This document shows, piece after piece, positions 5,379 to 8,128 of a stretch of DNA of 35,970 bases. The position numbers and the translations under genes were made by a program. This DNA is from Candidatus Kuenenia stuttgartensis. Lineage in GTDB: Bacteria > Planctomycetota > Planctomycetia > Gemmatales > Gemmataceae. Below the pieces are notes generated by a model. The model ran no database searches. It saw only the letters and a program-made list of their open reading frames with translations, and was not told where the DNA came from. Where the stretch lies: assembly GCA_945897965.1 (NCBI GenBank), contig CAMDHK010000011.1, positions 1-35,970 on the forward strand. Direction: 5' to 3'. How positions within the stretch are numbered: position 1 is the stretch's first letter; each line of letters begins with the position of its first letter.

Positions 5379-6563
5379 TTAGAGTTTCGGTTTAGAGTCA
5401 TCATACTCAAAAGGGGACTCGTTATCGACCCGAGCTAGCCTTAAAGATGTCTTTCCTTCAAGAAAATCCATTAAAACCGGAAATACATGCTTCAGACGCC
5501 ACCCTTTTGCAAGAGAATTAGTACCAGAAAGTGAAGTATTGTCAATTTTAGAGCGAACTAGCTCGCGTAAATCAGAGGCGGTAGCGACCAAGCCTGGTAT
5601 AAGGCTTTTACGGTTACATAGGTCGCCAAGCAGCCCTGCCATCACTTGCCCGATAAGGCCTACTTGGGGTGCATCGGGTTTGGTTTCATCTTGAAGGGGC
5701 AAGGTATCAAGAGGGAGTGCCCGCGCTTTTTGGATAGCAGCCATGATTTCTTCGGAATCGCGATGCTGAATGCCCCTAAAGGCTAAAATATCTTGAGCTT
5801 TCTGAGGGTTTCGTTTGACAATATCAGCAATAAGATCATCGCGAAGGATGGCACGGGGCGGGCGATTGCGCTTAGCAGCAAATTCTTCGCGCCAAGCAAC
5901 GATTTCGCGCACCATCGCCAAGCGCTTGCGATCAAATCCCCCGGTTCCTTTAACCTTGCGCCAGCGTTCGCCAATCGGTTCATCAAGGTTGGATCTTGCT
6001 TGGAGATCAGCAAATTCTTCTTCGGCCCAATCGATCCTGTCGAGTTCGAGAAGCCTTGCAGAAATTTTCTCATGGCACTGCAAAAGATAGCGAACATCAT
6101 CAAATGCGTAGGTGATCTGATCAGCAGTTAGCGGGCGAATGCGCCAGTCGGTGAGGGTTTCCTGCTTGGAAAGTCGGGTGCCTGCAAAGGTTTGCACTAA
6201 TGTACCATAGCCTGCGGGGTAGCCGACTCCTATCAACCCTGCAGCCACCTGAATATCAAACAATCTAGCAGGGGCTTTTCCGGATAAATGCTGGCAGATG
6301 CGGATTTCTTCCCTGCCTGCATGAACGATAACATTGCGTTTTCCATCGGTTACTAAATCCCAAAATGCCCCGAGTGATCCAATAGCGATGGCATCGATAA
6401 CAAAAAGATCTTCTGGGGTTGCAACCTGAACCAGGCATAATTCAGGGCGAAAGGATTCTTCGCTTACAAACTCCGTATCAAAACCAAACACACTGCTTTT
6501 GGCAATTTTCTCGCAACTCTTAAGGAAATCAGCTTCATTAGCCACAAAATGCTCGCGCATCAT
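5379..6563 (-). CDS. rnd: Ribonuclease D (3'-5' exoribonuclease, DEDD family, HRDC domain)
   Basis: The exonuclease domain (about 1-190) shows Exo I FDTEFV and Exo III YAFDDVRYLL (Tyr-x3-Asp, DEDDy type). At Exo II it reads HAGREEIRI, where the family normally has Asp in the position of the second Glu, a conservative change. An HRDC region follows (about 215-290, with WREEFAAKRNRPPRAILRD). RNase D trims 3' ends of tRNA precursors and other stable RNAs. The open frame extends to 6605, but the ATG at 6563 has AGGGA seven bases upstream and gives a 394-aa protein that begins shortly before Exo I, so that start is preferred. It leads the operon with thrC and dapB. Confidence 0.9.
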   Translation of the reverse strand: MMREHFVANEADFLKSCEKIAKSSVFGFDTEFVSEESFRPELCLVQVATPEDLFVIDAIAIGSLGAFWDLVTDGKRNVIVHAGREEIRICQHLSGKAPARLFDIQVAAGLIGVGYPAGYGTLVQTFAGTRLSKQETLTDWRIRPLTADQITYAFDDVRYLLQCHEKISARLLELDRIDWAEEEFADLQARSNLDEPIGERWRKVKGTGGFDRKRLAMVREIVAWREEFAAKRNRPPRAILRDDLIADIVKRNPQKAQDILAFRGIQHRDSEEIMAAIQKARALPLDTLPLQDETKPDAPQVGLIGQVMAGLLGDLCNRKSLIPGLVATASDLRELVRSKIDNTSLSGTNSLAKGWRLKHVFPVLMDFLEGKTSLRLARVDNESPFEYDDSKPKL

Positions 6564-6606
6564 TAAAATCCCTGACAAAGTTGTTAAATCACTACTGCAA
6601 TACAAA

Positions 6607-6638
6607 AATGATTATGCCTCATTTATAATCATTGTCAT
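6607..6638. promoter_or_regulatory. Palindrome and candidate promoters between rnd and the Sm-like ORF
   Basis: A perfect 9-bp inverted repeat (AATGATTAT at 6607-6615, ATAATCATT at 6625-6633) lies in the divergent gap. On the minus strand, ATGACA (6638-6633) and CATAAT (6616-6611) are 16 nt apart, a plausible sigma70-type promoter for rnd. On the plus strand TATAAT (6624-6629) is a perfect -10 without a clear -35. The palindrome overlaps both, so it could be an operator. This is pattern-based only. Confidence 0.35.
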
Positions 6639-6725
6639 ACCTTTTATTCTAGGATGGATTAAAATTAATGTTAATGCGACCAGTGTTGTGATAACTGAAC
6701 CAAAGCTTCCCCAAGCGAGGGCCTT

Positions 6726-6989
6726 ATGATTGAAGAGTACCTGAATCAAAAAGTGGTGATAGATTTACATAGCCCTTATGTCTGCCTTGGAACCCTCACC
6801 CGCTTTGATGAGGGCTTTTTTGAAGTCGTTAATGCGGATCTTCATGACCTACGCGACACCAAAACCTCCAGAGAAAACTACATAGCAGCATCACTTTCGA
6901 CAGGCATTAAACGCAATCGCAAGAAAATTCTGGTCTCCCGCAGAGACATCATCTCGGTTTCCCTGCTTGCAGATGTCATGGATGAATAA
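6726..6989 (+). CDS. Small Sm/LSm-like protein of unknown function
   Basis: The 87-aa ORF has GAGGG four bases before its ATG and is divergent from ribonuclease D. I do not recognise a named family. The pattern of strands resembles an Sm fold: KVVIDL (about 9-14), a bent pair YVCLGTLTRFDEGFFEVVNADLHD (residues 18-41, with the Gly and FDE spaced as in an Sm1 motif), a variable charged insert, then KKILVSRRDIISVSLLADV (67-85) in the Sm2 position. The RG of true Sm2 motifs is absent, so the fold is an inference. The low-complexity-free sequence, good ribosome binding site and separate promoter region argue that it is a real gene. Its position next to an RNA-processing enzyme hints at an RNA-related role. 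Confidence 0.6.
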   Translation: MIEEYLNQKVVIDLHSPYVCLGTLTRFDEGFFEVVNADLHDLRDTKTSRENYIAASLSTGIKRNRKKILVSRRDIISVSLLADVMDE

Positions 6990-6993
6990 GGGT

Positions 6994-8076
6994 TTATTTC
7001 TTATCCCATGCATTGGTGAAGAATCTGACCCAGTTGCCATGCGAGATCTTTGCAATATCCGCATCGTTATAACCTCTCAGCTTTAATAAAGCTGGAAAGC
7101 CCTGCAAATCTGCAATGGTATCGATGTCGCCGGGAGATTGCTCGGTACCAAACCCACCATCCAAATCGGTTCCCAAAGCCGCATGATCCGAATTTCCTGC
7201 AAGCTGGCAAACCCTATCGATATGATCGATGACGGTGTTCATGGTGACGCCACTTTCTTTTACCGTGGTTTTACCGCGAACCCAATTTGGGTATAGCATC
7301 CAGTTGTCGAAAGCAGCACCAATAACAGCTTTTCGAGAAATAAGCTTTTTAATCTGATCATCGGTAAGTTGCCTTTGGTCGGGCACTAACGCCCTGCAAT
7401 TATGATGGCTTGCAAGTACGGGCCCGCCATAAAGTTCCATGGCTTCATCAAAGCATTGGTCTGAAAGATGGGTGATATCCAAAATCATGCCACAAGCCTG
7501 CATCTCTTTTAAAAGATCGGGGCCCATGGGGAAAAAGCCACCAATGGTGCTGGTGCCATGTGCGTAGGGGCTGACGCCATAATGTGCGGGGCCGATGATT
7601 CGTAAACCCAGATCAAACCAATGATGAACCTGGCTGGGGTGAAGAACAGGGTCTGCGCCTTCCATGCTTAGGATAAAGCCCAGAGGTTCGGTCTCGGACA
7701 CAGGTTCCTGCCAGCGTTGGACATGATTTACAAGATCTTTAGAATTCTTGATAAAGCGTAATTGCCCCGCCTCAACCATGGCTTCGTAGTAGGCGAGTTG
7801 GCCCCTTCCTGCGGCATACGAAGCGGGCATGGATTCGTAGCGCTGCAGGGGTGGCATCATGCCCTGTCGCATGAGCCTTGCAAGGAGAGTTGCGATAAAA
7901 ATGCCTACTTTTCCCTTACGAAGCTCGGGAAATGAGACGGTGCCCACGCCACGGCCTTTGCCGGTCATGAGTAGTTCATTTTCCCGCTTTCTAATAAGGG
8001 AAACATCGAGTCGGAGGTCTCGATTCCAGTCCAGGGCATTCCATGCAAGATCTAGATGAGCATCGAAAATTAGCAT
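6994..8076 (-). CDS. Membrane dipeptidase-like peptidase, M19 family
   Basis: A zinc-dependent dipeptidase of the renal dipeptidase/AC-peptidase family. Visible metal-site segments are DAHLDLAWN (HxD, residues 5-13 of the chosen start), SMEGADP (bridging Glu), DITHLSD (His), ASHHNCRAL (His) and LGTDLDGGFG (Asp). The open frame starts at 8118, but GGAAAGAG precedes the ATG at 8076 and MLIFDAHLDLAW is the usual M19 beginning, giving 360 aa. There is no signal peptide, so it is probably cytoplasmic. The stop is only 5 nt from the stop of the convergent Sm-like gene. The substrate is unknown; M19 members also hydrolyse D-amino-acid dipeptides. Confidence 0.88.
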   Translation of the reverse strand: MLIFDAHLDLAWNALDWNRDLRLDVSLIRKRENELLMTGKGRGVGTVSFPELRKGKVGIFIATLLARLMRQGMMPPLQRYESMPASYAAGRGQLAYYEAMVEAGQLRFIKNSKDLVNHVQRWQEPVSETEPLGFILSMEGADPVLHPSQVHHWFDLGLRIIGPAHYGVSPYAHGTSTIGGFFPMGPDLLKEMQACGMILDITHLSDQCFDEAMELYGGPVLASHHNCRALVPDQRQLTDDQIKKLISRKAVIGAAFDNWMLYPNWVRGKTTVKESGVTMNTVIDHIDRVCQLAGNSDHAALGTDLDGGFGTEQSPGDIDTIADLQGFPALLKLRGYNDADIAKISHGNWVRFFTNAWDKK

Positions 8077-8128
8077 GTTTTTTTCTCTTTCCGGGTTTGG
8101 CAAGTAGTCATTAGGCATGTCGCAATGT

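Follow-up and report, generated by a model that had tools for sequence, protein, structure and literature searches.

A small planctomycete protein encoded beside an RNase D-like gene has a predicted Sm fold and conserved residues outside the canonical uridine-contact sites

Does a short gene lying back to back with an RNase D-like gene encode a distinct Sm-type protein, and if so, are RNA and the neighboring exonuclease its partners? The gene, an 87-amino-acid open reading frame with an ATG start at positions 6726 to 6989 of the plus strand, lies in a 35,970-nucleotide stretch of Candidatus Kuenenia stuttgartensis DNA that we call the window. On one side, on the minus strand at 5379 to 6605 with a likely ATG start at 6563 as judged from sequence, is a gene with PF01612 and HRDC domains, whose product scores 247 bits on the TIGR01388 rnd model, under the cut-off of 299. 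On the other side is a convergent M19 membrane dipeptidase-like gene (6994 to 8118, minus strand; PF01244, E 4.2e-47). Both neighbors serve here as context only.

Comparison with relatives identifies the 87-amino-acid frame as a real gene, because differences concentrate at third codon positions: counts at positions 1, 2, and 3 are 9, 4, and 52 against L035 and 30, 14, and 59 against L042. The frame is under purifying selection. A reading in which the frame is spurious, or its resemblance to Sm proteins a matter of chance, could appeal to the Pfam LSM profile, which gives the window protein 13.2 bits, under the gathering cut-off of 23.4. The codon-position pattern, the presence of homologues across many families, and a confident structural model with Sm-type matches all oppose such a reading, and we give it practically no credence.

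AlphaFold2, supplied with an alignment of 48 rows (A1), modeled the window protein with a mean pLDDT of 93.3 and a pTM of 0.84. The model consists of a helix at residues 2 to 5, strands at 9 to 14, 18 to 27, and 31 to 41, a second helix at 49 to 59, and strands at 65 to 71 and 75 to 80, which amounts to five strands in Sm order after an N-terminal helix, with an extra helix in the loop between beta3 and beta4. Model strands and conservation together define an Sm1-like segment (beta1-beta2, residues 9 to 27, positions 6750 to 6806, plus strand) with invariant D13 and G22. An Sm2-like segment without Arg-Gly (beta4-beta5, residues 65 to 80, positions 6918 to 6965, plus strand) is placed by the last two model strands and by the hhalign register to archaeal SmAPs. 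An earlier note on this DNA had described an Sm1-like strand and glycine pattern and the lack of a classical Sm2 motif. The first is visible in both model and alignments; the second also holds, in that Arg-Gly is replaced by x-Arg while the hydrophobic Sm2 pattern still aligns in hhalign.

Structure searches agree with this assignment. The best 50 Foldseek rows against the PDB are Sm, LSm, SmAP, snRNP, and spliceosome chains together with the NatC complex, the listing leaving the chain's protein unnamed for some complexes; the best match has an E value of 2.5e-4, and 12 matches fall at or below 0.001. VIA-align superimposed the model on Sm, LSm, and SmAP structures with Z scores of up to 10.4 (71 residues aligned, rmsd 2.4), and in both searches archaeal SmAP1 and eukaryotic LSm proteins were the top matches. 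A library of viral structures returned one match at E <= 0.001, which carries no name, then a phage protein labeled RNA binding (E 1.3e-3), and one row labeled Sm-like (E 0.045). With a confident monomer prediction and Sm, LSm, and SmAP proteins first among the structure matches, the Sm-like fold suggested earlier stands as a prediction, and membership of the window protein in the LSm superfamily is supported by that predicted fold.

Similarity at the sequence level is fainter. The Pfam LSM profile, at E values up to 1, matches 27 of the 48 relatives in A1, and its cut-off is passed by one of 19 relatives scored individually (L022, 31.2 against 23.4 bits). Searched against PDB sequences, the A1 profile matched LSm2 and 1ycy in seven rows, none of them better than E 0.058. 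A profile covering both subfamilies described below (A3) gave 18 rows, three of them non-Sm by name, with LSm2 best at E 0.0027. Sm-like chains of NatC occur among the Foldseek matches of the window protein, the A3 sequence matches, and the Foldseek matches of the sister subfamily; EDC3 occurs in the last two sets and LSM14 in the last. In direct profile comparison by hhalign, the window's family aligned with three archaeal SmAPs over 67 columns (E 4.6e-4, probability 33%). Weak matches to DUF6897, DUF2642, and the NCBIfam family MM0924 turned up in 19 of 48, 5 of 48, and 9 of 46 relatives, respectively; in the Pfam and NCBIfam scans the window protein passed no cut-off of these three. As a separate observation, L022 scores above the Pfam cut-off for DUF2642 (26.1 against 22.7 bits) as well as for LSM, which hints that DUF2642 is perhaps Sm-like too.

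The most strictly conserved residues of the family form a signature, D38-x-H40-D41, E50-x-Y52, G60, and N64-R65 (residues 38 to 65, positions 6837 to 6920, plus strand), in which all 48 A1 rows agree on D38, H40, D41, Y52, N64, and R65. It runs from the end of beta3 through the inserted helix to the start of beta4, and the conserved residue set encloses this loop-4 helix. Among 64 family I sequences (the window's subfamily), taken from 65 loci with L026 left out and near copies included, D13, G22, D38, H40, Y52, N64, and R65 are invariant and D41 (63/64), E50, and G60 (62/64 each) nearly so. A wider set of 31 family I rows keeps D38, Y52, and R65 in all, H40 and N64 in 30, D41 in 29, and E50 in 28. 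Loop 4 of an Sm ring lies away from the pore loops.

The residues by which LSm proteins ordinarily contact uridine tell a different story. Asp of Sm1 is represented by D28 in 44 of the 64 family I sequences. Across the same 64 sequences, Asn of Sm1 does not rank among the six most frequent residues at any of positions 31, 32, and 33, nor does Gly of Sm2 at positions 71 and 72, where the usual pair is R or S followed by R (R at 71 in 21 of 64, R at 72 in 43 of 64). Read from these alignments, the canonical contact residues, Sm1 Asn and Sm2 Arg-Gly, are missing in family I. Their loss weakens the case for an RNA chaperone, and RNA may still be bound by another surface. The acidic isoelectric point of the family (median 5.25) was considered as a further argument against RNA binding and dropped, which tipped our assessment very slightly toward RNA; it is uninformative, because archaeal Sm proteins are similar (5.2 to 6.6 for three of them; controls were 8.06 for Bacillus subtilis Hfq and 6.97 for Escherichia coli Hfq, or 9.99 for its first 72 residues).

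Family I has a sister, family II, to which it is joined by a profile comparison at E 1.8e-19 and from which it is split by a branch with 99% SH-aLRT in a tree of 108 rows, a tree built on 88 columns in which 58 of 105 inner branches are under 80%. Five of the genomes with retrieved loci carry both, so the two are paralogues. A family II model (pLDDT 90.4) again retrieved Sm-type chains at the top of its Foldseek matches, with a best E of 1.1e-3 and no match at or below 0.001. None of its 26 members (A2) matched LSM even with the threshold set at E 1, and hhalign to the SmAPs was poor (E 0.046, probability 1%). Family II retains H40 in 14 of 15 rows, D38 in 11, and Y52 in 9, and the position of N64-R65 is mostly Lys-His.

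Genomic context sets family II apart. Of 31 chosen loci, 24 (from 13 of 16 families) have a PF06491 gene, which we take to encode a bacilliredoxin, no more than 500 bp upstream and in the same orientation; the assignment was checked with Pfam on four proteins. In three genomes, all of one family (f49), the domain runs on into an IscA-type Fe-S_biosyn domain, PF01521 (L141:5959-6654, L160:5977-6681, and L161:3730-6270); in L161 this is followed by GCV_T and TPR repeats. Two further loci, L156:5998-6615 and L165:5642-6237, have tandem Sm-like genes downstream of the PF06491 gene, the first of the pair being the more divergent. One cluster (c0) was rejected as an antisense shadow of the PF06491 gene.

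The usual Sm protein of bacteria is Hfq, and the distribution of the new family has to be read beside it. Used alone as the query, the window protein matched 90 of the 294 phylum genomes and 34 of 41 relatives, its own genome counted. The family profile raised the phylum count to 144 of 294, in which genomes that supplied rows of A1 match by construction, since those rows come partly from the same 294. Among assemblies with completeness of 90% or more and contamination of 5% or less, it matched 64 of 154. About half of the sampled phylum genomes are without a family match, and many of the 294 are incomplete. A contig scan that reaches close relatives only returned six records, each labeled Planctomycetota; tblastn with the window protein gave no match in plasmids and phages, and the A1 profile found no relative in viral contigs. 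The Hfq cut-off was passed in 1 of 294 genomes, with 15 matching at E <= 0.01, by a profile that found Hfq in 5 of 14 control genomes; the Hfq_1 cut-off was passed in none, with 11 matching at E <= 0.01. The sole Hfq match above cut-off (G071:C68:35016-35159) sits within a 376-amino-acid frame. Neither profile matched the window genome at E <= 0.01, and Hfq is absent from the Pfam matches of the window protein at E up to 10. That the family is distinct from Hfq, as had been suggested, agrees with this lack of a profile match and with an hhalign E value of 0.2 against two Hfqs. The suggestion that it is undescribed also holds for the libraries and literature searched: among the literature matches listed, which include PMC9029176, PMC4071446, and PMC11607428, none was seen to describe an LSm family, or any Sm-type protein, from planctomycetes.

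The link to the neighboring exonuclease gene holds at close range. A divergent rnd gene lies within 300 bp in all six gene-bearing genomes of the window's genus (seven searched) and also in L036, and among 20 other genomes of the same order with a located gene, four have it within 300 bp and eight within about 2.2 kb. The flanks covered were 1.5 kb in six of these 20 genomes, and one further genome with a fragment only (G310) was left uncounted. Farther out we tallied 77 family I loci chosen by hand from search lists; 30 belong to the window's class and 47 fall outside it, nine of the latter with flanks of at most 1.5 kb. Divergent rnd occurs in 3 of the 30, in none of the 47, and in none of 31 sister-family loci. 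An rnd neighborhood conserved across planctomycetes was therefore not borne out, divergent rnd being seen only within the window's order, and a partnership with RNase D is rejected as the general function of the family.

Between the two genes, the shared palindromic region proposed earlier fared unevenly. A perfect 9-bp inverted repeat (AATGATTAT at 6607-6615 and ATAATCATT at 6625-6633) does lie in the divergent intergenic region beside the PF01612/HRDC gene. Five relatives conserve it poorly: it is exact in L032, has one mismatch in L033 and two in L031 and L034, and was not found in L035. We rejected it as a palindromic operator, and its poor retention among these five gives a functional site little support. 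A dedicated cofactor of RNase D, the most specific form of the original proposal, can thus point to the linkage in the genus and part of the order, but it must contend with the absence of that linkage from the 47 outside-class and 31 sister loci, with a gene pair that is divergent and forms no operon, and with the unkept palindrome. We consider it very improbable.

Outside the window's class, the commonest neighbor of family I is rseP, the site-2 protease gene (PF02163 plus PDZ domains, with Pfam checks on four loci). It lies in the same orientation no more than 500 bp upstream in 24 of the 47 loci, which come from 15 of 26 families. The share is 12 of 19 in a set picked for long upstream frames, a choice that inflates it, and 12 of 28 elsewhere; in the window's own class the link occurs in 0 of 30. 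In 18 of the 24 rseP loci, dxr comes before rseP (by a Pfam check on L173; the frame tested from L171 gave no Pfam match). The long upstream frames themselves, which occur in high-GC genomes, looked like N-terminal fusions of family I; we read most of them as shadow frames because those 12 of 19 loci have a co-oriented rseP upstream. Other upstream neighbors are sparse. Four loci of one family (L102, L104, L174, and L179) have a DHH-domain gene, Pfam checked on L104 only, whose product in the two loci scanned (L104 and L174) is closer to Mn pyrophosphatase than to NrnA, all below cut-offs. A TgpA-like gene occurs in three loci of the window's class (Pfam check on L085 only), and a GDSL-lipase-like gene in L105, L175, L023, and L027, from three families, with L105 below the Pfam cut-off.

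What, then, might the protein do? We tentatively favor, at a little short of probable, an LSm-superfamily protein that probably assembles into a ring, whose working surface has moved, and that takes part in RNA handling. By analogy with LSm proteins, it would build the ring through beta4-beta5 pairing and would meet its partner through the D-x-HD/E-x-Y/N-R cluster near the loop-4 helix rather than in central uridine pockets; that partner could be RNA. The fold model, the SmAP alignment, the breadth of the family, and the rarity of detected Hfq count for this proposal. Against it we count the LSM score below cut-off, the 33% probability of the SmAP alignment, the E of 0.058 for PDB sequences, the lack of Sm1 Asn and Sm2 Arg-Gly, a DHH-domain neighbor closer to Mn pyrophosphatase than to NrnA, main outside-class neighbors that are envelope and isoprenoid genes (rseP and dxr) and not RNA genes, and a sister subfamily whose context is thiol redox and Fe-S. 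The choice between an RNA and a protein partner is its weakest step. Most characterized ring-forming LSm proteins bind RNA, and for that reason we lean slightly toward RNA handling over a protein-adaptor role; the DHH neighbor, the order-level RNase D link, and the phage RNA-binding match point faintly the same way, the neighbors suggesting an RNA-turnover theme.

A competing possibility, somewhat doubtful to us, is that the Sm fold has been repurposed as a protein adaptor, much as in the Sm-like domains of EDC3, LSM14, or the NatC auxiliary subunit, serving membrane proteolysis with RseP here and thiol-redox or Fe-S functions in the sister subfamily. The missing contact residues argue for a protein partner, as do the redox, Fe-S, and envelope contexts: rseP upstream in about half of the outside-class loci (12 of 28 without the biased set) and mostly preceded by dxr, PF06491 upstream of subfamily II, and the fusions to PF01521. 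The NatC and EDC3 Sm-like chains among the structure and sequence matches fit as well. Neighborhood need not imply joint function, however, and the rseP link is lacking in the window's own class, while the fusions are limited to family f49 of the other subfamily. The same elements allow a broader proposal, which we rate as rather unlikely, of a phylum-wide Sm-fold family whose invariant functional site moved from the RNA-holding pore loops to the face of the loop-4 helix and that acts as a non-RNA ring or adaptor, allied with membrane proteolysis in one branch (dxr-rseP operon) and with thiol-redox or Fe-S assembly in the other (PF06491 operon and IscA-type fusions). Functional replacement of Hfq, with a canonical uridine pocket and proximal-face sRNA binding, would suit the predicted LSm-type fold and a phylum where Hfq and Hfq_1 are rarely detected, but Sm1 Asn and Sm2 Arg-Gly are not conserved, the profile comparison with Hfq is insignificant, and with the family in 144 of 294 genomes only, many genomes without a detected Hfq lack the family too; this we regard as improbable.

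An Sm-fold family, as predicted here, in about half of the sampled Planctomycetota genomes, with recurrent operons, where Hfq is rarely detected, is a candidate for one of two roles, that of a missing RNA chaperone and that of an Sm fold put to use outside RNA biology. Its nearest counterparts in structure are archaeal SmAP1 (1jbm, 1h64, and 1i4k) and eukaryotic LSm proteins, which share with the model a helix followed by five strands, the Sm1 glycine, and the Sm2 hydrophobic pattern. In contrast to them, the window family has neither Sm1 Asn nor Sm2 Arg-Gly and instead has a longer beta3-beta4 connection with a helix and the invariant D-x-HD/E-x-Y/N-R set. Hfq (PF17209) and the Hfq-related PF21979 are, like the window protein, of similar size and bacterial members of the Sm superfamily, yet profile similarity to two Hfqs is not significant, and Hfq_1 is matched weakly by 4 of 48 relatives (best E 0.0069). 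PMC11607428 distinguishes classic and mobile Hfq clades and describes a protein annotated as Hfq that turned out to be a flagellar component; that reassignment serves as a warning, although the fold there was not Sm. DUF6897, DUF2642, and MM0924 touch the family through several weakly matching relatives, the window protein itself passing none of them. The Sm-like domains of EDC3, LSM14, and the NatC auxiliary subunit are eukaryotic, belong to other complexes, and are weakly related in sequence to the window family; in them, the Sm fold serves protein contacts.
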